This document shows positions 3,148-40,223 of a stretch of 41,249 nucleotides of DNA, piece after piece. This stretch comes from a virus. The stretch's first letter is position 1. Every line of letters starts with the position of its first letter. Both the position numbers and the translations under genes were made by a program. Below the pieces are notes generated by a model. The model did no database searches. It saw only the letters and a list, made by a program, of their open reading frames with translations, and had not been told where the DNA came from. Location of the stretch: the IMG/VR virus record IMGVR_UViG_3300031673_000161, positions 1 to 41,249 of that record; one strand, written 5' to 3'.

Positions 3148-3705
3148 TCAACGATTACTTTCGAAAAATGCTTTTGCAAATCCTGGTGGAGTTATGCTTC
3201 TCAATGCACTTCTGTTTTTTGATGGTGACATATAGTGTATTGGATTTTTGCCAATAGGTTCTATAGGATTCTTCTTTGGTATATTGAAATTACCCCACAG
3301 ACAGGTTTTCTTTGTCCAGGGGTCACCGTAATCACAGGGGTTAAAATACATTTTGGGTTTACCAAGATAATTTACTAATCTTCCTACTGGATTTTCAAGA
3401 CACCAAAATACAGGATTTGAAATTACTACAATTCTCAAGCAGGCATCTACTAAAGCCAAGGCTTCAAGTAATGCTTCTGAACCCTTGTTTACCCACCATC
3501 TAGCACCACTACCAGCAAGATTGGTACAAACTGGTGCAGCTAATATTCCATAAATGTTTTCATTGGATTTTGGTTTATATAATCTTACATCATAGCCAAA
3601 TATAATATCCAGTATCCTTACATCATATCCATTATCAGAATAGTCTTTACTCCAGTTACCTTTTGCACCGCATAAATCTATTATGATTTTATTTGAGTTA
3701 TCCAT
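3148..3705 (-). CDS. Phage C5-cytosine methyltransferase-like protein
   Basis: The 185-residue protein resembles short phage cytosine methyltransferases. A SAM-loop-like motif is at residues 9-16 (IDLCGAKG), a PC-loop analogue with Cys60 at 57-60 (APVC, where the family usually has APPC), and ENP at 104-106 stands for the ENV motif. The GDPWTKKTCLWG and TPPGFAKAFF blocks are also typical of these phage proteins. It would methylate cytosine C5 if active. The Pro-to-Val change next to the catalytic Cys and the lack of a target-recognition domain make activity or specificity uncertain. Confidence 0.8.
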   Translation of the reverse strand: MDNSNKIIIDLCGAKGNWSKDYSDNGYDVRILDIIFGYDVRLYKPKSNENIYGILAAPVCTNLAGSGARWWVNKGSEALLEALALVDACLRIVVISNPVFWCLENPVGRLVNYLGKPKMYFNPCDYGDPWTKKTCLWGNFNIPKKNPIEPIGKNPIHYMSPSKNRSALRSITPPGFAKAFFESNR

Positions 3706-4864: not shown

Positions 4865-5878
4865 TTATACTTTTAATTTACCTTGTTCACTTTCTGCAAA
4901 ATCATCGGCTATTTTTTCTTGTTCTTTCATTTCTCTTTCATAATCTCCCTCAAAACCAGCTTGCGCTGCTTCTGCTTCCACTTCTTGCTCATCTAACTTT
5001 TCTTTTAGATAGGCCATAACTTTATCAAACTGTTTTCTGGTCAGCTCTTTAGATGATTCTTTTATTTTGTAGTTTTGAATTAAATAAATTTTAAATTCTT
5101 CTTTTGTATAACCTAACTTGGAAACCTTTTTCCACATATCTTTTAGTTCGTCTATTGTTACCTTAATTGATTCAACCAAACTTTTTTTATGCAGGTCTTC
5201 TTCAATGTCTTTTTCTTCCGGTCGCTCAGGTTTTTCAAGTTCAAGTATCTGACCAGTTTTAGCTTCCAAAGCTTTCTTTAGTTGTGGGATATCAGCTTCA
5301 AGGCGCAGTACCCAAACAATTTTTTTCTTACCATCAGGGTTTACTTCCTGTGAAATTACATCTAAGAAAAATGGGAGCATTGAAAGTCTGCCTCCAGTTA
5401 ATTTTTTAGCATACTCAATGCCACCGTTAATATTAAGGATTGAATTATAGCTAGATGTATCTAATTGATAGACTCCAAACCGGTTTACTCCACGAATCAT
5501 AAGATACAAGTTTCCTATTTGCTTGCACTTATTCTTTTTGTAGTACTCGCATTCCCGACCCGGACATTCTATTTCCTCAAATTCTCCCGTATCTGTATTT
5601 ACACAATTGGCTACCTCTCCATCTCCCTTACAGACAAGTCCCGTACTTTTTCCATAACGCTTATAGTACTGTGGAAATACTTCCTCCAAATTGTCGGAGT
5701 GAAAAGCAATGTTAAGTCTTTTAGGTTGATCTCCGTAGACTGCCCTTACCTCAATAGGACAGACAAAATAATCCGTAGCCTTAGGATATTCACTTTTACT
5801 TCCTTTTACTTTTACTCCAAGATGAATTTTACCCAGTCTTGGAATCCGTCCTCTTCCTTGAAAATCTTTTATTGGCAT
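4865..5878 (-). CDS. phiC31 gp3-like (recombination directionality factor family) protein
   Basis: The 337-residue protein has the run of features I associate with phage gp3/RDF-family proteins, often labelled hydrolase or metal-binding protein: IHLGVK near the start, PKATDYFVCP (32-41), FPQYYKRYGKS, a Cys cluster (CKGDGEVANC, then CPGREC and a further Cys), and QLDTSSYNSILNIN followed by GGRLSMLPFFLDV. The last 130 residues are charged and coiled-coil-like. In phiC31, gp3 turns the serine integrase toward excision, but many relatives occur without a known integrase partner. No integrase is in this window. It is preceded by an HNH gene and a RecB-like nuclease, so a DNA-processing role is likely. 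Confidence 0.65.
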   Translation of the reverse strand: MPIKDFQGRGRIPRLGKIHLGVKVKGSKSEYPKATDYFVCPIEVRAVYGDQPKRLNIAFHSDNLEEVFPQYYKRYGKSTGLVCKGDGEVANCVNTDTGEFEEIECPGRECEYYKKNKCKQIGNLYLMIRGVNRFGVYQLDTSSYNSILNINGGIEYAKKLTGGRLSMLPFFLDVISQEVNPDGKKKIVWVLRLEADIPQLKKALEAKTGQILELEKPERPEEKDIEEDLHKKSLVESIKVTIDELKDMWKKVSKLGYTKEEFKIYLIQNYKIKESSKELTRKQFDKVMAYLKEKLDEQEVEAEAAQAGFEGDYEREMKEQEKIADDFAESEQGKLKV

Positions 5879-6510
5879 AATTTATTCTCCTTTATTATTT
5901 CTTTATGATAATTAAGATGTTCTATGTTGTTGGCAAATAACATTAAATTTTCTGGCTTATTATTTGAAACATTACCATCAATATGATGTACTATTTCTTT
6001 TGGTTTGAGATATCTACCTAAAATTTTTTCCATTACCAATCTATGTTCCATTACATAACCTTTATGATCTCCATTGGGATGTCTTCTATTTTTTATTTGA
6101 ATATAACCCATTTGATGTATTGTTTTACCACCCTTCCAATGATTTGCTTTTTCGTGTATTCTCCCCTTCATTATTTTCGCTAAATTAGGTTTTTTAACTC
6201 CACAACAAGCATCGCTTATTTTTTTACATATTTCTTTTGATACTGGCATACCTTTATTTGTTGGAGGCAAACCTATTCTTGCTGTTCTCATCTTTTTTAA
6301 AACTTCTTCGCTATATACTCCTTTTTTACCTTTATTCCACGGGGTTCTACCAGACATTTTCTTTCTGACTTCCTTAGTTCTTTTAGTTCCTTTTTCAGCA
6401 ATTTCAAAACATCTTCGACAACAATATTTTCTTTTATTGCTTATATAATTTTGGAATATTTTTCCACAAACTTGGCAGGTTATTTCAATTTTTCTTTTCC
6501 CATATTTCAT
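5869..6510 (-). CDS. HNH homing-type endonuclease
   Basis: The 213-residue protein has an N-terminal zinc motif (Cys12, 15, 30/31, 34), a repeated NUMOD3-like DNA-binding segment (about 50-105, PWNKGK and NKGMPVS repeats), an NHWKGG block, and a C-terminal HNH nuclease core (VHHIDG with His175-176, then NLMLFANN and a late His). This is typical of free-standing phage homing endonucleases. Its end overlaps the RDF-like gene by 10 nt, so it is well integrated in the operon although probably mobile by origin. Confidence 0.93.
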   Translation of the reverse strand: MKYGKRKIEITCQVCGKIFQNYISNKRKYCCRRCFEIAEKGTKRTKEVRKKMSGRTPWNKGKKGVYSEEVLKKMRTARIGLPPTNKGMPVSKEICKKISDACCGVKKPNLAKIMKGRIHEKANHWKGGKTIHQMGYIQIKNRRHPNGDHKGYVMEHRLVMEKILGRYLKPKEIVHHIDGNVSNNKPENLMLFANNIEHLNYHKEIIKENKLCQ

Positions 6511-8145: not shown

Positions 8146-8477
8146 TTTAATAACTCTGGATTTTTATATATATTGCCGATGATTTCTAAAAATTTGAATT
8201 GACCTAGTCTTTTAAATCCATAATCTTTTGTTTCCACCCCAAACATTCCATCTTTAAAAATTACTAAATAATTAAAGTTAGCCATTTCGATAATTTCCCC
8301 AATATCTCCCTCATAAATTTCCTTACAATTTTTATCTTTTAATCCTGTATATTGCATAGGTTTAGACCAATGATTTGCTATATCTTTAAAATCAGAAAAT
8401 CTTATACACTCATCTTCTTTGAAATATCTCATACAATTATTTAATTTATCCCAAGCTCTAAATTTAATTTCTCTCAT
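8142..8477 (-). CDS. YopX family protein
   Basis: The 111-residue sequence carries the YopX hallmarks: IKFRAWDK at the start, MQYTGLKDKNCKEIYEGDI in the middle and FLEIIGNIYKNPELL at the end. YopX proteins are common in Firmicute phages; their biochemical role is unknown. It ends PELLK-stop, where the tail codons supply the GAG-type ribosome binding site of the next gene. Confidence 0.95.
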   Translation of the reverse strand: MREIKFRAWDKLNNCMRYFKEDECIRFSDFKDIANHWSKPMQYTGLKDKNCKEIYEGDIGEIIEMANFNYLVIFKDGMFGVETKDYGFKRLGQFKFLEIIGNIYKNPELLK

Positions 8478-9478
8478 TTTATTAACCTCTTTCCTATTTC
8501 AGTAATTACATTTGTTGTAACAGCATTGCCAAGCATTTTATATCTCTGTGTATCACTTACTCCCCCTGTCCAGTTATCTGGGAATCCCTGTAATCTTTCA
8601 CATTCTATTGGGGTTAAACGCCTTATAGATAATCCCTTAAATCCAATTTCTGGAGTTCTACCACTTCTTAAACAACTTCGATTATCTCTTCCGTCTCTCA
8701 TTATCATTGTCCTCTGTCCGTGGTTAAGCCACCCTTTATAATAATTGCTGTCAATGGCGTGGACGATTTGTCTATTAATTTCTGAATATGTGTTATTTGT
8801 TTCTCCGATAGGAAATACTTCCGGTCTACATTCTCCTCTAAGATGTCCGACAATGAACACCCTTTCCCTATTCTGTGGGACTCCGAAATCCTTGCTGTTA
8901 AGCACCTGCCATTGAACGTCATACCCCAATTCATAAAGGGTATAGATAATGGTTCTAAATGTTGTTCCATTATCATGTGAAAGCAACCCTTTGACATTTT
9001 CAAGTAGAAAATATCCAGGCTTTTTATGATGTAGTATTCTTGCAATGTCAAAAAAGAGAGTACCTCGTGTATCTTCAAATCCTTTCCGTTTGCCAGCAAT
9101 CGAGAAAGCTTGGCAAGGGAATCCACTTGTGAGCAAATCGTGGTCGGGGATTTCATCAACGTCAACTGTTGTGATATCTCTTGTGTCTGGTTTTTCCCTA
9201 AAGTTTTTTTCATAGATTTTTGCTGCGTATTTATCCCATTCATTGGCATAGACACAAGTAAGTGTTCTATTGTTTGGGTTGCTGTTAAATTGTTTGCAAT
9301 ATCGTCTTGTCTTATTTTCAATTCCTTGCCCCTGCGTGGACTCCAATCTTTGCCCCGCCTCTTCATTTTTTTTCGTATTTGTTTGGCCTCTTCCGTCCTG
9401 GTTTCTGTCAACGCTTTCCAATCCATATCTAAATCCCCCAATACCTGCAAATAATTCTATAAATCTAATTTCTCTTAT
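8474..9478 (-). CDS. C5-cytosine DNA methyltransferase (Dcm-type), probable AUA start
   Basis: All C5 methyltransferase motifs are present if the frame is read from 9478: motif I ELFAGIGGF (residues 8-16), PC loop with Cys122 (FPCQAF), ENV (160-162), QNRER (202-206), a target-recognition region, then RRLTPIECERLQGFP and the closing GNAV motif. The first standard start in frame is TTG 9421, which would remove motif I. Between an upstream in-frame TAG and motif I there is no ATG, GTG or TTG, but AGGAG lies 6 nt before an ATA at 9478. Total 334 residues. An unusual, polar insert of about 50 residues separates motif I from CVYANEWDKYA. Base composition is richer in GC than neighbours. Confidence 0.9.
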   Translation of the reverse strand: MREIRFIELFAGIGGFRYGLESVDRNQDGRGQTNTKKNEEAGQRLESTQGQGIENKTRRYCKQFNSNPNNRTLTCVYANEWDKYAAKIYEKNFREKPDTRDITTVDVDEIPDHDLLTSGFPCQAFSIAGKRKGFEDTRGTLFFDIARILHHKKPGYFLLENVKGLLSHDNGTTFRTIIYTLYELGYDVQWQVLNSKDFGVPQNRERVFIVGHLRGECRPEVFPIGETNNTYSEINRQIVHAIDSNYYKGWLNHGQRTMIMRDGRDNRSCLRSGRTPEIGFKGLSIRRLTPIECERLQGFPDNWTGGVSDTQRYKMLGNAVTTNVITEIGKRLIK

Positions 9479-10161: not shown

Positions 10162-10596
10162 CTATATAATTTCTGATAATTGTTTTTCTAACCATTCTTT
10201 TTTCCCGGGAATTCTAAGCCAGTAATAAATAGTACCCTTTGAAACCCCAAATCTATTTGCTATTACTCTTACCGGTATATCGTATTTAAGAACATATTTG
10301 GTAGGCCTACCCTTCACTGATTTACCCCCACTATTACAATGCAATGGATCGTGACAATTTCTACACAAAGCTATTAAATTATCTATAGAATGATTACTCT
10401 TATCTCCATCTATGTGATGAACTAGGTTTGCAGGTTTACCACAAATTTCACACTTGCCTTTTGATTTTTTTAAAACTTCAATTCTTCTTTTCTTTAATAA
10501 GATATGGTTAGGATATTCAGAAACCCCATTATTCCAGCGAGGATTACCTTCTCCTGTCATTATTTTTTTGTGCATTTCTCTTAAATCTTTACGCAT
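10162..10596 (-). CDS. HNH endonuclease with C-terminal helix-turn-helix
   Basis: The 144-residue protein has an N-terminal NPRWNNG block, a zinc-stabilised HNH core (Cys49, Cys52, His60-61, Cys78, Cys81, His82, with IDGDKSN between) and a C-terminal helix-turn-helix (about 108-127, VIANRFGVSKGTIYYWL) for DNA targeting. It looks like a small homing endonuclease inserted between two regulators. Confidence 0.93.
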   Translation of the reverse strand: MRKDLREMHKKIMTGEGNPRWNNGVSEYPNHILLKKRRIEVLKKSKGKCEICGKPANLVHHIDGDKSNHSIDNLIALCRNCHDPLHCNSGGKSVKGRPTKYVLKYDIPVRVIANRFGVSKGTIYYWLRIPGKKEWLEKQLSEII

Positions 10597-10632: not shown

Positions 10633-10830
10633 TTATATTTCGCCTTCGTTAAAAAATAATTTATCAATTGGAATATTTAGATATACTGATATAAGTTTAA
10701 TATATTTTCTACGTGGATAATTTTTACCTTGTGTCCAGTTATTGACACGTTGAGGACTTACATTTAATTGTCTTGCAAGCTCAGCTTTTGTAATGCGTTT
10801 CTGATATAAAATTTCATTTAAATTATTCAT
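10633..10830 (-). CDS. XRE-family regulator, first gene of the left operon
   Basis: From the ATG at 10830 the product is 65 residues with a lambda-repressor-like helix-turn-helix (AELARQLNVSPQRVNNWTQG). It is the promoter-proximal gene of the leftward operon. The -10 box ends only 7 bp before this ATG and no Shine-Dalgarno is present, so the mRNA is probably leaderless, as for some phage repressors. An ATG at 10839 lies inside the -10 region and is unlikely. Confidence 0.9.
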   Translation of the reverse strand: MNNLNEILYQKRITKAELARQLNVSPQRVNNWTQGKNYPRRKYIKLISVYLNIPIDKLFFNEGEI

Positions 10831-10837
10831 ATTTCTC

Positions 10838-10865
10838 ATTATAAAGGTTATTTTTAGATTGTCAA
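10838..10865 (-). promoter_or_regulatory. Consensus sigma-A promoter for the left operon
   Basis: TTGACA (10865-10860) and TATAAT (10843-10838) are both exact consensus hexamers separated by 16 bp on the minus strand. Predicted transcription starts at or next to the ATG at 10830. It lies just downstream of the terminator at 10923-10976, so it opens an independent unit. Confidence 0.85.
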
Positions 10866-25297: not shown

Positions 25298-25325
25298 AAA
25301 AAAAGACACCTGAAAAGATGTCTTT
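25298..25325 (-). terminator. Rho-independent terminator before the major tail gene
   Basis: Minus-strand stem AAAGACATC/GGTGTCTTT (9 bp with one G-U) with a 6-nt loop, followed by a run of T. It follows the tail terminator-like gene and would reduce or reset transcription into the major tail gene. Confidence 0.85.
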
Positions 25326-26947: not shown

Positions 26948-27542
26948 TTATCTTGGCCTCTCTTTTCATTAAAATTTTGTAGTAAGCTTTTTTATCCTTT
27001 TGTCTATTATAATCCCGCTTATGGTTGTTGTGTAAAAATTCAACTTTGGTTTTATCGCTGGTATAACATGTCCCCACCCTGTCAAGGTTTGCAAATAACC
27101 TGCCGTCCCTGTCCAGTAGCATTTTATGAGTCCCCCGGTAGTGCAGGCCTTCCCTAAACCTGAAAAATCTGTTAGAACGTCTATGTCTTTGTCTATCACC
27201 CTGCTCACCTATCTGGATTATACCTATATCACTTTTAAGTTTAGGCAGTCCCGTTATAAGGACTTCGTCAGCGTCAATGTTTAGGCAGATGTCACCATCT
27301 ACGAGCTGGTCTAAATAACTATTACGCTTTCCTATTTCATCAGCATTTATAGATGATATCAAGTCTATATTAAGACTTCCCAGATATTCTAAAGTACCGT
27401 CAGTAGAATCCCATCCCGAACCTGGAAAATCTTTAAATCTACCATCTATTACGACAATCTTATCAACTTTATTCTGTATTGATTCTATGCAATCCCGAAT
27501 TAGGGGCATATCATTATAGGTTATTATCGTAGCTATCAGCAT
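26928..27542 (-). CDS. Glycosyltransferase (GT2-like), 204 aa
   Basis: The N-terminus LIATIITYNDMPLIRDCIESI is a typical GT-A nucleotide-sugar fold start, and NIDADEV (around residue 90) supplies the DXD metal motif. The remainder (RFREGLHYRGTHKML) resembles bacterial family 2 transferases. It is the last gene of the cassette and runs 20 nt into the connector gene. Confidence 0.87.
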   Translation of the reverse strand: MLIATIITYNDMPLIRDCIESIQNKVDKIVVIDGRFKDFPGSGWDSTDGTLEYLGSLNIDLISSINADEIGKRNSYLDQLVDGDICLNIDADEVLITGLPKLKSDIGIIQIGEQGDRQRHRRSNRFFRFREGLHYRGTHKMLLDRDGRLFANLDRVGTCYTSDKTKVEFLHNNHKRDYNRQKDKKAYYKILMKREAKINEPITN

Positions 27543-28390
27543 TTTAATTTCCAGTATTTTCCTAATTCAAAGTCAAATTCTTTAGGGAACTTGGCATGAC
27601 CCGAACCTGGATAATGTGTTATTTCACCAAAATATATATAACCATCTACTAAGTAAAAATCAATACGTACAAAATCAAACCCTTTACTTAACTTTTCGGC
27701 AAACCCTATCATTTTGCTAAGATATTTTGGTTTCTCTATAAATGGCGCAACCTTATGGCCTTCCCTAACAATGTTTAATGAATTCCAATCCCTGTCGTAA
27801 TAATTAAAAGTAGTAAGCCCGTGACTGGTTACATATATCATTCGGCATTTTCCATCAAACATGCAAAATCTATAATCACTTGGCAGACCGCCACCCTTTT
27901 CACGAAGTAGTTTTTCAATTATAATCAGCGGTTTAATCTGGCCATAAGCCCATTCATACCACTCGATACCATGTACTGTCCTAAACCATTCTTTACAAAT
28001 ATTTATTATTTCCGAATTATTTAAATTAAGTGCTTTTTTGTGCGTATAATTAATGTCGTAATTCTTTAATCCATTGATACCTTCTGCAAGTATCCATCTT
28101 CCAGCAGCATTATTGGGTTTTATAATGTATTCCCCGGTCAGTTTATTTGGCGGTATTTTCTCGGGATTATCGGTAACATATAGCAACGGTATTAAATGAT
28201 TATCCGCTTCAAAACCTATCTTATCTCTAATATACTGTCTTGCCCTATATTTATCTGCTGTCAGTGGTATTAACGGGTTACGGTCAAAAATCTTCTTATA
28301 TACTATTTTTTCATTGAAAGATTTAGGATTATCTAAATTTAAAGGATAGCCATGTATCTTTAAAAATAGTTCTTTCTCATCTTCATACAT
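27536..28390 (-). CDS. TupA-like ATP-grasp enzyme
   Basis: The 284-residue protein carries the ATP-grasp/TupA pattern: SFNEKIVYKKIFDRNPLIPLTADK, EYIIKPNNAAG for ATP binding, SDYRFCMFDGK, NYYDRDWNSL, and FDFVRIDFYLVDGYIYFGEITHYPGSG with the metal-binding acidic residues. TupA relatives occur in teichuronopeptide and exopolysaccharide gene sets and probably ligate an amino acid or similar group. It overlaps both neighbours. Confidence 0.92.
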   Translation of the reverse strand: MYEDEKELFLKIHGYPLNLDNPKSFNEKIVYKKIFDRNPLIPLTADKYRARQYIRDKIGFEADNHLIPLLYVTDNPEKIPPNKLTGEYIIKPNNAAGRWILAEGINGLKNYDINYTHKKALNLNNSEIINICKEWFRTVHGIEWYEWAYGQIKPLIIIEKLLREKGGGLPSDYRFCMFDGKCRMIYVTSHGLTTFNYYDRDWNSLNIVREGHKVAPFIEKPKYLSKMIGFAEKLSKGFDFVRIDFYLVDGYIYFGEITHYPGSGHAKFPKEFDFELGKYWKLKC

Positions 28391-28869: not shown

Positions 28870-30276
28870 CTAATTATAAAATCTATTTTGTTTTATATGT
28901 TTTATCAATCCAAAATTATAATGATCTTCAATATTTACCTGATTGATTGATGGATACAATTTAAATGTACCGGGAATATTATTAACTTTAATCCCCATCT
29001 TCCAAGCTACATAATTAAAACTTAATTGATCCCGCAATGAACCAGAACATATCTCTTTCCACATAGCTTCATTTAGGGCATTTATTTTAGGTGTATGTCT
29101 TCGCAGTATTACCCTGGTTTGATGTAATCCATTATTGACCGGATAATCCTCTGCTCTAAATTTCAACATTTGTTTTTCTATAGTTTTGACATTATCTAAC
29201 TTAAAATCAATACAAACTTTAGCTTCTTCATAAATGCAGTTTCTCCAGTGTTTAAGCAATGCAATATCAGCACTGGCAAGATACATTCTTATAAGTGCGG
29301 TAAGTTCTGACATTATTATTATATTTGAATCTACCCATATGCTATACTGAACATCGGGAAAGAACTTATGTATCAGCCATTTATACATTCTGGCTTCTCT
29401 ACGATTATTATTTAACTTTGTTTTTATATATTTTATATTCCAGAAAGAACTTTTTATATTTTCATCATCGGCAAACATTATGTAGTTAAATCCTGGATTA
29501 TCAAAGTGCTTTTTTATCGGATTATCCACTCCACCAATATTTGCAGTTACAACAACTTCTTCCGGTATGTATTTATCCCATTTTTTTATAAAATAATCCT
29601 TGCTTTGTTGTTCGTGCAATTTTTCATCAGGGTGTAAATTCTTATACTTGATGTCATTTATGGTTGCTTTTGTTCTATCATCGGCAAAATGTGTGGTTTT
29701 ACTATTCATGGCATAAAGACTGAATCCGAGTTTCCGATACTGCATGGACAGGTCCCAGTCATAGAAATAATAATCCAAGTTTTCATCTAACTTTAACCCC
29801 ACATTTCTTATTATCATACAGCAACCATCAAGTACAATAACCTCATCAAACTCACCCTGTATGCGTTTAAATTCAAATTTAGCGTATTTTTCTATTCCCG
29901 TAGCAAGATTGGTAACTTCAATATTTCTTCTAAGTCTTTTAAACCCGGCAATACCGACCATTCCCACCTTTCCGTTACTCTCCATAAATGATATTGCCTT
30001 ATTGATCCAATTGTCTGTACTTACTACAATATCATTGTGCATGAGTACCACATATTTACTTTTTGCAAATAATAAGGCTTTATTAAATGCTTTTGGTATA
30101 CCCTCGTTTTTACTATTTTTTATAATATTAATATCAAATCTGTCAAGATAACCTGGATCATCTGAACCATTATCCACAACTGTTATATTTATATTTTTAT
30201 TATAGAAAAATAAACTTTTTAGTGTCTGGATGGTCTCATTTTTCCTGTTGAGTGTGGGGATTATTACATCAATCAT
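28870..30276 (-). CDS. Bifunctional protein: GT2 domain plus DUF616-like glycosyltransferase domain
   Basis: Residues 1-230 form a family 2 glycosyltransferase (DVIIPTLNRKNETIQTLKSL, MHNDIVV as metal motif, DYYFYDWDLSMQYRKLG). Residues about 235-468 form a second domain with VVVTANIGGVDNP, YIMFADDE, EARMYKW, YSIWVDSNI and a DQLSFNYVAWK end, as in DUF616/TOD1-like proteins, which are GT-A related. The fusion suggests two successive sugar additions by one polypeptide. Confidence 0.87.
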   Translation of the reverse strand: MIDVIIPTLNRKNETIQTLKSLFFYNKNINITVVDNGSDDPGYLDRFDINIIKNSKNEGIPKAFNKALLFAKSKYVVLMHNDIVVSTDNWINKAISFMESNGKVGMVGIAGFKRLRRNIEVTNLATGIEKYAKFEFKRIQGEFDEVIVLDGCCMIIRNVGLKLDENLDYYFYDWDLSMQYRKLGFSLYAMNSKTTHFADDRTKATINDIKYKNLHPDEKLHEQQSKDYFIKKWDKYIPEEVVVTANIGGVDNPIKKHFDNPGFNYIMFADDENIKSSFWNIKYIKTKLNNNRREARMYKWLIHKFFPDVQYSIWVDSNIIIMSELTALIRMYLASADIALLKHWRNCIYEEAKVCIDFKLDNVKTIEKQMLKFRAEDYPVNNGLHQTRVILRRHTPKINALNEAMWKEICSGSLRDQLSFNYVAWKMGIKVNNIPGTFKLYPSINQVNIEDHYNFGLIKHIKQNRFYN

Positions 30277-33622: not shown

Positions 33623-33647
33623 AAAAAAACACTCCAAATCTGGAGTG
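33623..33647 (-). terminator. Rho-independent terminator before the scaffold gene
   Basis: Minus-strand CACTCCA-gatt-TGGAGTG followed by seven T. It follows the small Gly-rich gene and precedes the scaffold, dividing early head genes from scaffold and capsid. Confidence 0.88.
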
Positions 33648-33690
33648 CTTTATATGCGGTTGTTATATATATTAAAACTATTTTAAATAG

Positions 33691-33824: not shown

Positions 33825-34742
33825 TTAAGCTACCTTCCTATAAACTTCCTTATACCAACTTGCCAATTCTGGTTGACTTGTCGGATCCTTCATAAACCCT
33901 ATCCAGTTATTAACAAACTGCTGGCTTGATATTGCCTTGTCAGTCGTATAACATTGGCATTGGCTATGCGGAGTGGTCGGTAAATCTTCCGGTTTATACA
34001 CACCTACCAAATCCTCACAAATAGGACACGCATCACCTGACGTATGCCACTCAATGCCGATTAGTCCAGGATTATTCATACTTGCCATTCTATCGGCTTC
34101 ACGAAAAGCGGTTGTACGTTCAGTCCTTAGTAATCTTGCTGCGTCAAACTGTACCGTCCGGCCATGTAGTTTAGTTGTAATTGCACGCCTATCGGGATTA
34201 AGCAGTTTATTTAATCTCGCTTCCAGTACCTTACTTGACGCTGGCCTTCCACTTACAATCTCTTCAAGTATTATCCGTTCCATTTCCCGTTTTGTCCTGC
34301 GATTTAAAATCCATATCCTATCAGATAGTTTTAGTCCGTCAGTCCATATCCTATCGTAGACTAACTTTACTGTGTCATTTGTAACTCCGGTAAGCACCCT
34401 TTTTAAGTCTACATCAAAACCTGCACCGGAAAGACGCTGGCTGTACTTTTCCAGCATTATCCCGTTTACTTCCTGTCCCAAATTAGCACTGTCAATTAAT
34501 GCCTTATCAAGTATGCTTTCAAATCCATTAGTTAGCCTATCGGCTTCCTTTAAAAGTACGCTTATTTCCTTTTTCTTCTGTGTATAACTCCATGATGTTT
34601 TACTTATTATCCTATCTGCGTCCTTCTTTATACTTTCAGCAAATCGGATATAAAGCCTACCAAGTTCCTTTTCCTGTTTAGCGGATAGTGCTACAAAGTC
34701 TTTACGGTTTTTAAGAATGTATTTTTGGAATTCATCTGACAT
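33825..34742 (-). CDS. Minor head protein, SPP1 gp7 / Mu gpF family
   Basis: The 305-residue protein is helical at first, then carries the Mu-F domain: RTERTTAFREADRMA, IEWHTSGDACPIC (Cys239, 242), GVYKPEDLPTTPHSQCQC (Cys262, 264), which forms a zinc-like site. SPP1 gp7 binds the portal and affects DNA ejection. The 206-aa moron-like gene separates it from the portal gene. Confidence 0.92.
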   Translation of the reverse strand: MSDEFQKYILKNRKDFVALSAKQEKELGRLYIRFAESIKKDADRIISKTSWSYTQKKKEISVLLKEADRLTNGFESILDKALIDSANLGQEVNGIMLEKYSQRLSGAGFDVDLKRVLTGVTNDTVKLVYDRIWTDGLKLSDRIWILNRRTKREMERIILEEIVSGRPASSKVLEARLNKLLNPDRRAITTKLHGRTVQFDAARLLRTERTTAFREADRMASMNNPGLIGIEWHTSGDACPICEDLVGVYKPEDLPTTPHSQCQCYTTDKAISSQQFVNNWIGFMKDPTSQPELASWYKEVYRKVA

Positions 34743-34755
34743 TGATTTTGCCCAT

Positions 34756-34784
34756 AAAAAAAGAGCCTCTAAAAAGAAGCTCTT
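34756..34784 (-). terminator. Rho-independent terminator of the moron-like gene
   Basis: Minus-strand AAGAGCTTC/GAGGCTCTT (9 bp with one G-U) around a 6-nt loop, followed by seven T. It lies directly after the 206-aa gene. Confidence 0.88.
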
Positions 34785-34812
34785 GATTTAAAATTGTATT
34801 TAGATTTACATA

Positions 34813-35433
34813 TTAAAATATGAATTGTTTATCAGAAATATTGTTTACTGATTCAAAAATTTTATATTCAAATTTTTCATAATTACAATTAAGATACTTA
34901 CCAATTTTGTTTTTATTAAAACAATCTTTAATTTTACTACGTAATTTATCAAAACTAAATTCATATTTATATCCACATCTTTTATAGATATAATCTGTTC
35001 CTTGTATCTCATCGTCTATCTCTATTCTATCCCAAATCTCACCTTTCCCATTATCTGAAAAACATAAATCAATGGGTTCTATTTTAATAAATTCAACATC
35101 CGATTGTGTTGTTTCTGTAGTTTCCATACTTCTTGATATTTCCAATTCTCTCGCTAGTATAGCTTTCTGTAAATATTTGGGAGTAAAATATATTATAATA
35201 TCTTTACCATATTGAGTATTACTATTTTGATAATTCCAGAACCAATCAGAATCCGAATAGGATAAGCAAATTAAAAGTTCAGTATAGAATTTTAATAATC
35301 CCCATATAAATAATACAAAATGATACCATTTATAAGGTTTGAATCTTTTACTTTCATTGATGGAATCTTTATATTTTATATCATAATTATCTTTAGATAT
35401 AATTTTTATTGTATAATCATTAATCTCTATCAT
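34813..35433 (-). CDS. Moron-like hypothetical protein, 206 aa
   Basis: The product has a basic N-terminal region, a central hydrophobic and aromatic stretch (YHFVLFIWGLLKFYTELLICL, about 37-57) that may span or touch the membrane, and a charged C-terminal half with four Cys. It is AT-richer than its neighbours and resembles no structural protein. With its own -10 box and terminator, between portal and minor head genes, it fits a moron: a cargo gene expressed independently, for example in a lysogen. No Shine-Dalgarno precedes the ATG. Confidence 0.75.
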   Translation of the reverse strand: MIEINDYTIKIISKDNYDIKYKDSINESKRFKPYKWYHFVLFIWGLLKFYTELLICLSYSDSDWFWNYQNSNTQYGKDIIIYFTPKYLQKAILARELEISRSMETTETTQSDVEFIKIEPIDLCFSDNGKGEIWDRIEIDDEIQGTDYIYKRCGYKYEFSFDKLRSKIKDCFNKNKIGKYLNCNYEKFEYKIFESVNNISDKQFIF

Positions 35434-35439
35434 ATATTA

Positions 35440-35468
35440 ATTATATCACTTTTCACCATAAATATCAC
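35440..35468 (-). promoter_or_regulatory. Promoter of the moron-like gene, leaderless
   Basis: TATAAT (35445-35440), preceded by TGA as an extended -10, lies exactly between the portal stop and the next ATG, with only 6 bp to that ATG. GTGATA (35468-35463) is a weak -35 at 17 bp. Transcription should start at the ATG. Confidence 0.6.
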
Positions 35469-36900
35469 CCATATTCTTTTCCTGCTCGTTTTGTTCTTCC
35501 AGTATTTCAGCCATTAACTTTTCAGGGTCTTCCACGCCCATATTATCCATTTCACGTTTAACAGAAGACAGTCCAGCCGATAGTCTAAGTAATGCAACCT
35601 CTACTTCTTCCTTCTCATTTAACGGTACTGGCATATGTGTGATAATTTCAATATCTGCTTCTTCAGGATAAGAATAAGACTCGTAAACTGCCCTCATTTT
35701 TAGACTATCTTTATACATCTGTTCCAGTTTAGGCTTCCAGATAGTATTCTTTGTATTGGTTTTAGAAATCATAGAGGCAAACATAAGTTTTAATGCCACT
35801 CCGCTAAGATTACCAAGTTTTGTAACTATTTCGGGATTTATCTGTATAATACTGGAGAGTTCAAACATTATGTTTTTCAGATTATCTATATGATTTTTTA
35901 AGGTATCAGTATAGGCAAATTTAGATTCCAGTTTAAATATATCAGGCTTCACGTCACCTGTTCCGGCACTTATCAAGTCCCAAACCGCTCCTGGTTTTGT
36001 CTTGGGTTTACTCTTATTACCTTTAGCATCAGTAAATTGCTTAATATTAAGCATTATAGTTATAGCAAACATCTCAAAACGCAGCGCGTCTGAACTATCA
36101 GAATACTTTTTATTAAGCTCATCAATTATTGGTATCAGGTCTACAAGCTCGCTATATCCCCATACCATGCCAAGTGCAGGATTGTTAGGAATAATATAAA
36201 CTGGTATAAAATCTATAAACTTTTTGCCATTACCAAGATAGGTGGGTGCTTGTATAACTTCCTCTACTTTCAGATTTAACTTTACATTGTAGGTTGCTTC
36301 ACTAAACAAACACTTGCCATCTATCATTTCAAACGTCTGTTTCCAGATAATATCATCACTCTTGAAAGCTACGAAATGAACTTTAGTTAGCTTCTCGTAA
36401 TCATCAAATTTAAAAATCGGAAAACATTCTATTCTTGGACGTGGTAGAAAACGTATACCGATATCCTTATCGTAAATCATCTTAAAAACTACACCACCGG
36501 AAGTATTGGCTTCTTTTGCTGCCTGTTGGAGCTTCAAGTCCATATTGTTTACTTTATGGATATCATATAAATCTTTTTCTACTGCTTCGGCTTTCTTTTC
36601 ATTAGATTTTTTTTCGGTATTTACCGCAATATCAATAGGCTTTTCAAACTGCCAGTTAGCTAATTTATCTACAATATAACGGGAATAGTTTATAGGTATC
36701 TGTGCTGGCTTTCTATCGGTAGTCTGTCTAAATTCAGGATATTTGGCTTCGATATGCTTAAAGACATCATTCTCGTAATAGTCGTAATATTTTATAAGTG
36801 TATTTAGCTGTGCTAATTGTGCTTCTGTAAATACTGAATATGTCTTATCTTTGGTTTCTTCAGGATAAGCTAATTCTATTAATTTTCTTAAATCTACCAT
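35446..36900 (-). CDS. Portal protein, SPP1 gp6-like
   Basis: The 484-residue protein has the typical portal core: INYSRYIVDKLANWQFEKPI, LQQAAKEANTSGGVVFKMIYD, IPVYIIPNN, SELVDLIPIIDELNKKYSDSSDALRFE, and ALKLMFASMISK. Twelve subunits form the DNA channel at the head vertex. The acidic C-terminus ends in the ATATCACCC region used by the downstream promoter. It follows the terminase genes directly. Confidence 0.95.
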   Translation of the reverse strand: MVDLRKLIELAYPEETKDKTYSVFTEAQLAQLNTLIKYYDYYENDVFKHIEAKYPEFRQTTDRKPAQIPINYSRYIVDKLANWQFEKPIDIAVNTEKKSNEKKAEAVEKDLYDIHKVNNMDLKLQQAAKEANTSGGVVFKMIYDKDIGIRFLPRPRIECFPIFKFDDYEKLTKVHFVAFKSDDIIWKQTFEMIDGKCLFSEATYNVKLNLKVEEVIQAPTYLGNGKKFIDFIPVYIIPNNPALGMVWGYSELVDLIPIIDELNKKYSDSSDALRFEMFAITIMLNIKQFTDAKGNKSKPKTKPGAVWDLISAGTGDVKPDIFKLESKFAYTDTLKNHIDNLKNIMFELSSIIQINPEIVTKLGNLSGVALKLMFASMISKTNTKNTIWKPKLEQMYKDSLKMRAVYESYSYPEEADIEIITHMPVPLNEKEEVEVALLRLSAGLSSVKREMDNMGVEDPEKLMAEILEEQNEQEKNMGDIYGEK

Positions 36901-39832: not shown

Positions 39833-39858
39833 CCTATATGGTATATATACCTTATAGG
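39833..39858. promoter_or_regulatory. 26-bp dyad at the end of the NinG-like gene
   Basis: CCTATA-T-GGTATATATACC-T-TATAGG is symmetric over 26 bp except for the two T positions. It overlaps the stop of the NinG-like gene. No U-run follows, so a protein-binding site is more likely than a terminator. Confidence 0.45.
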
Positions 39859-40223
39859 ATTGCTATCTTATTTAAATATTCCAATACCTTATCATAATCC
39901 TTATCCCATATTCCATTTTTCTTCTTAAGTAGATATTCATAATCATCTGGACGAGCCCTTAAAAACCAATCCATAAACCAGATAGAATCATTATGGGCTG
40001 AAAACTTGCCTGCGGTATGATGATTGGCACACAATAGGCAACCATTTCTTATATCCCACCTTAATTCAAAATTTCTTCTACCGATTACATGGTGAGGATG
40101 ATTAGCCTTAAATGTTCCACAGACTTCGCATTTACCTTTAGAACGTATTATTTTACTCCATAACTTGTCACATTTATTCTTTAATGTTTTTCTACTTGGT
40201 TTTCTTTTAGTCTTTACTTTCAT
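39852..40223 (-). CDS. NinG-like HNH protein
   Basis: The 123-residue protein has a basic N-terminus (KVKTKRKPSRKTLKNKCDKLW), a zinc and HNH-type core (CEVCG, then HPHHVIGRRNFELRWDIRNGCLLCANHH) and the ARPDDYEYL block common in phage NinG/recombination-junction proteins. It likely acts on DNA structures in replication or recombination. Overlaps the upstream gene by ATGA. Confidence 0.85.
   Translation of the reverse strand: MKVKTKRKPSRKTLKNKCDKLWSKIIRSKGKCEVCGTFKANHPHHVIGRRNFELRWDIRNGCLLCANHHTAGKFSAHNDSIWFMDWFLRARPDDYEYLLKKKNGIWDKDYDKVLEYLNKIAIL

Follow-up and report, generated by a model that had tools for sequence, protein, structure and literature searches.

Organisation of the portal/gp7 junction

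The window, which is the whole 41,249-nucleotide stretch of viral DNA that was analysed, carries genes on its minus strand in the order terminase, portal, 206-aa ORF, gp7-like, scaffold, and capsid. An earlier note on this DNA had placed an AT-rich gene between portal and SPP1 gp7-like genes, and this was confirmed by the ORF call, by the family matches of the two neighbours (Table 1), and by a GC content of 23% in the ORF versus 34% in the portal gene; GC3 of the ORF is 15%. Both neighbours are left intact by the insertion. The longest open frame in 2000 Markov resamplings with the composition of the 206-codon ORF was only 111 codons, and the frame is therefore not a product of chance.

Table 1. 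Positions of the junction features and of other genes and signals in the window
Feature	Position	Strand	Remarks
206-aa orphan ORF	34813..35433	minus	ATG start, predicted leaderless (ATG = predicted +1)
SPP1 gp6-type portal gene, upstream flank	35446..36900	minus	SPP1_portal PF05133, E 8e-32
SPP1 gp7-like head morphogenesis gene, downstream flank	33825..34742	minus	phrog_1657, E 2e-42
Possible 7-codon minicistron MGKINVR*	34732..34755	minus	Overlaps gp7-like start; also in L002
Intrinsic terminator (predicted)	34754..34784	minus	10-bp stem, 4-nt loop, T tract
Extended -10 TGATATAAT	35440..35448	minus	Its TGA is the portal stop codon; geometry repeated in relatives
-35-like hexamer GTGATA	35463..35468	minus	Weak; 17 nt from -10
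Terminator before scaffold gene	33626-33651	minus	No cargo
Terminator before major-tail-like gene	25302-25325	minus	No cargo
Gp3-like RDF-like protein	4865-5878	minus	PF18897, E 8e-49
Cro/CI-type HTH gene	10633-10830	minus	PF01381
DNA-methyltransferase-like genes	310-888, 2344-2985, 3148-3705, 8474-9421	minus	
TupA-like ATP-grasp and glycosyltransferase gene	27536-28390 and 28870-30276	minus	Late region downstream of capsid
Endonuclease genes	5869-6510, 10162-10596, 39852-40223		

The 12 bases between the portal stop codon (TGA, 35448-35446) and the ATG of the 206-aa ORF begin with TATAAT (35445-35440), and the TG preceding this hexamer is supplied by the portal stop itself, giving a perfect match to an extended -10 element. 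The hexamer ends exactly 6 nt before the ATG, as is required for a transcript whose +1 is the A of the ATG. Leaderless bacterial genes carry a -10 box directly before the start codon, which lies at the predicted end of the transcript (PMC3160421, PMC12340547), and the 206-aa ORF, with its -10 box at the characteristic distance from the start codon, some 10-12 bp upstream, and with no Shine-Dalgarno (SD) sequence, would by its sequence belong among them. No SD was found before the ORF, whereas roughly half of the genes in the window have one. The extended -10 behind the portal stop and the lack of an SD, both described in the earlier note, thus hold in the sequence.

Morons, in the original sense, are complete transcription units added between phage genes, and a predicted intrinsic terminator would close such a unit here, its hairpin lying 28 nt past the stop of the 206-aa ORF and abutting the gp7-like gene. 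The RNA of this element (34784-34754) folds at -15.8 kcal/mol with a z score of -4.0, and none of 200 shuffles folded as well; an Rfam search gave no match. The strong terminator that had been reported is therefore present, but it is less diagnostic than the earlier note held, since coding-strand terminators also precede the scaffold and major-tail-like genes, where there is no cargo, both in the window and in relatives. Late gene clusters of SPP1 are likewise delimited by stem-loop terminators (PMC6316719). A terminator by itself was rejected as a mark of a moron, since in this phage family other late genes, with cargo or without, are preceded by terminators as well.

Turnover at the junction in related phages

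Portal-based and gp7-based scans of viral contigs yielded about thirty related junctions; one of these comes from a Clostridiales MAG, where it lies on a short contig. The junction is closed in 15 loci (L003, L012, L016, L013, L109, L110, L111, L113, L114, L116, L117, L118, L124, L233, and L234), where the start of the gp7-like gene overlaps or touches the portal stop, and occupied in another 15 (the window, L002, L004, L005, L006, L007, L010, L015, L017, L106, L107, L108, L115, L119, and L236), where 121-1320 bp hold mostly unrelated small cargo; since L107 and L108 are near-identical, slightly fewer than 15 of the occupied junctions are independent. The portal tree requires at least six gains or losses of occupancy and at least 13 changes of cargo, indicating that the portal/gp7 junction is a site of turnover.

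The cargo is a DNA-methyltransferase-like gene in L005 and L236 (assigned by eye) and an HNH protein in L115, with small orphans elsewhere, and L119 repeats the layout of the window around another gene, of 78 aa. Proteins that look related, 227, 82, and 243 aa long, are encoded at the junctions of L006, L010, and L106, respectively, the 82-aa form resembling an internally deleted copy in which both ends are kept. The L106 protein matches phrog_8198, a phage family of unknown function. A promoter and a terminator of the cargo's own are both present in only three of the 15 occupied junctions, those of the window, L002, and L119.

The 206-aa gene is inserted between genes that are adjacent in 15 relatives, and it has its own predicted promoter and terminator and a base composition distinct from that of the portal gene. 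The promoter and the empty sites, combined with the terminator, appear to be diagnostic of a moron, whereas the terminator alone is weak evidence.

Recurrence of the leaderless geometry

Across 31 records, which make up 461 kb of family DNA, the strict motif TGnTATAAT-N6-ATG has nine occurrences, and each of them opens an ORF of at least 50 aa; the mean in Markov-2 simulations was 0.9, with no simulated occurrence heading an ORF of that size. The nine matches include three copies of one homologous 124-aa gene, leaving seven independent cases, for which a comparison of spacing 6 with other spacings gives a Poisson P of about 7e-4. When the definition is broadened to strong promoters with an ORF of at least 50 aa behind them, 12 cases have spacing 6, and any other spacing has 0-2.

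The genes behind the strict motif encode proteins of 206, 59, 216 (endonuclease-type), 124, 114, 65, and 78 aa with no evident shared sequence, and the geometry thus fronts six unrelated genes besides the 206-aa gene, at the portal/gp7 junction and at other late-gene junctions. The sites lie at portal/gp7 in the window, L005, and L119, before the scaffold gene for the 124-aa gene, before a head-tail connector-like gene in G015 and G018, and upstream of the terminase region in G009. A terminator stands 21-35 nt past the stop codon and immediately ahead of the following late gene in the window, L119, G015, G018, and the 124-aa cases; the 59-aa gene of L005 has the promoter motif and no terminator directly behind it.

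The exact 18-mer TGATATAATTAWTATATG has 88 matches in all viral contigs, 57 of which start ORFs of 50 aa or more. These matches (L018-L105) fall mostly in unrelated phages, at gene starts, and several of the genes are homing-endonuclease-like. Six Firmicutes genomes contain only 4-10 sites of the leaderless geometry in 2.3-6.1 Mb each, which disfavours the geometry as a general style of the host, although the phage host may not be among the six.

An alternative is that the 206-aa gene is a late gene of the head operon, encoding an accessory head protein of the virion, and that its promoter motif arose by chance. The gene does share its strand with the late operon in which it lies, between portal and gp7; proteins of 227-243 aa occupy the same junction in L006 and L106, that of L106 falling in a phage family; and SPP1 gp12 is a non-essential virion accessory protein among late-gene morons (PMC6316719). 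This alternative is nevertheless quite unlikely, given that the exact extended -10 spacing is repeated at unrelated genes, that the gene lacks the SD found before about half of the window's genes, that a terminator parts it from gp7, and that its GC content is so low.

The signals could also be real and the gene itself decaying or selfish, functionless cargo moved with HNH endonucleases, which are frequent in these genomes. Endonuclease genes occupy this junction in L115, follow the leaderless promoter in L010/G009, and occur three times in the window, and no relatives of the 206-aa protein were found; however, 206 codons have remained intact although a frame under no constraint should soon close in DNA so rich in AT, and functionless cargo is improbable. 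A moron cassette remains the preferred reading, and the window's cassette appears to be one of a family-wide set in which a promoter, a small cargo gene, and a terminator recur at several late-gene junctions.

A second promoter module and movement of cargo

The longer relatives G001, G026, and G027 contain a second, SD-led module composed of TTGACA, a 17-nt spacer, TATGAT, and an AT-rich leader with GGAGTC. It is near-constant across 11 copies in the three records, each preceding different small genes, which include YopX-like and ribbon-helix-helix-like genes, and many of these have a terminator at their end, before the gene that follows. In one G026 copy the leader has been lost, and a cytosine-methyltransferase-like gene (N-terminus, judged by eye) follows at the 6-nt leaderless spacing. 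The module occurs five times per record in G026 (L207, L208) and G027 (L209, L210), before unrelated small genes.

A 41-aa ribbon-helix-helix-like gene at the portal/gp7 junction of L002 is approximately 90% identical to one at the connector junction of G026 and G027. The portal of L002 is 88% identical to that of the window, and those of G026 and G027 are 47-48% identical to it. Because the small gene is so similar despite the distance between these portals, cargo appears to have moved between junctions, and the modules of G026 and G027 look to be a library of swappable cargo.

The 206-aa protein and phage lifestyle

No homology of the 206-aa protein beyond chance was detected in Pfam, PHROGs, PADLOC, NCBIfam, PDB sequences, or viral contigs, in phage and plasmid collections and the related records, or in 391 bacterial genomes from the class of the one MAG with a related portal. 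Such matches as appeared were at the level of chance, with tblastn E values of 0.002-0.01 and stops in several of them. AlphaFold on the single sequence gave a pLDDT of 36, too low to yield a fold. The membrane-like character and membrane action suggested in the earlier note find one hydrophobic segment in their favour, residues 39-57 (FVLFIWGLLKFYTELLICL), with a Kyte-Doolittle value of 1.91 over 19 residues. The segment is borderline only, as it contains a K and an E and its summed insertion energy, on an approximate scale, is unfavourable.

No match to serine (PF00239) or tyrosine (PF00589) integrases was found in the window or in six long relatives, seven records that are all possibly incomplete. 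The window encodes an RDF-like Gp3 protein, in a record without a detectable integrase, and a Cro/CI-type HTH gene. A perfect promoter, TTGACA-16-TATAAT, sits 7 nt from the ATG of the HTH gene, and the listed 68-aa start at 10839 overlaps its -10. Because no integrase was found while RDF-like and HTH genes are present, a prophage is not to be assumed, and the expression from a prophage proposed in the earlier note is not supported. Four DNA-methyltransferase-like genes, several HNH endonuclease genes, and a TupA-like ATP-grasp and a glycosyltransferase gene are also present in the window.

A prophage-expressed membrane protein acting in superinfection exclusion or another anti-phage function would be consistent with the autonomous promoter, with the hydrophobic stretch, and with the frequent effect of moron loci on phage immunity (PMC7067206). 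The integrase searches without a match in the window and six long relatives, the charged residues within the segment, and the searches for defence families, in which PADLOC gave 0 families, PHROGs and NCBIfam gave no match, and Pfam gave none above chance, speak against it and make it a doubtful explanation; defence or superinfection exclusion is left without support, nor is it contradicted.

Discussion

The 206-aa unit is probably a moron cassette, an autonomous transcription unit set between the portal and gp7-like genes. A moron with a leaderless promoter and a terminator of its own had been proposed from the window's sequence, and this proposal is supported and gains strength from the relatives, through the empty sites, the turnover of cargo, and the recurring promoter geometry. 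Against it count the poor -35 hexamer, the missing terminator of L005, the full pair of signals in just three of the 15 occupied junctions, and the terminators of cargo-free late genes, given which that of the cassette could serve regulation of the late operon.

As a cassette, the unit would be transcribed by a host-type RNA polymerase starting at the extended -10, giving an mRNA without a leader, beginning at the A of the ATG; this mRNA would carry the 206-aa protein alone and end at the terminator before gp7. Transcription would be independent of the late programme and therefore take place early in infection, or constitutively given a dormant state. The late operon would have to read through this terminator and the others for its head genes to be expressed, and late transcription presumably does so. 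The 206-aa protein would be accessory rather than structural, and it is tentatively suggested, because of its position and expression logic alone, that it acts early in infection, or on the host or competing phages, perhaps at the membrane.

The cassette resembles known morons in its clean insertion among late genes, its own predicted promoter and terminator, its differing base composition, and its absence from close relatives, but differs in being predicted to be leaderless with a fixed 6-nt spacing from -10 to ATG. In the lytic phage SPP1, the morons of the late operon are ORFs 8-10, 12, and 14, of which ORFs 8-10 come after gp7 and are bracketed by transcriptional signals (PMC6316719). The portal/gp7 gene order and the stem-loop-delimited late clusters are common to both phages, whereas SPP1 has no listed gp6-gp7 insertion and no leaderless cassette is described for it (PMC6316719).

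The PeSLs of T4-like phages (Arbiol 2010, Comeau 2014, cited in PMC4503421) are summarised there as promoter and stem-loop modules that flank small shuffling genes. The likeness to them is one of logic only, comprising repeated promoter and stem-loop modules and small shuffling genes, as promoter modules in common and cargo recurring at more than one junction were seen here; PeSLs are composite promoter-terminator motifs of T4-like myoviruses, whereas the signals of the present phages flank single cargo genes inside the late operon of phages whose head genes are SPP1-type. It is possible that exchangeable cassettes of a PeSL-like kind populate this late operon, with the two promoter modules and the hairpin terminators serving as common ends for the swapping of unrelated small genes from one junction to another; such cassettes would be tolerated because late transcription reads through the terminators. 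In bacteria, leaderless genes are a genome-wide gene style, at a few percent of genes for Firmicutes (PMC3160421, PMC12340547), whereas here the arrangement is repeated on accessory cassettes within a single phage group, and no relevant description of leaderless morons was found in the literature searched.

The moron cassette is ordinary in principle and more interesting as an example of a family-wide set. A late operon studded with terminators raises the question of how transcription gets through. If the family-wide pattern is true, the combination of an extended -10, six bases, ATG, a small ORF, and a terminator ahead of a late gene would find accessory genes without homology in phages that otherwise lack annotation, and would provide a ready list of candidates for tests of host takeover, anti-phage activity, and counter-defence.
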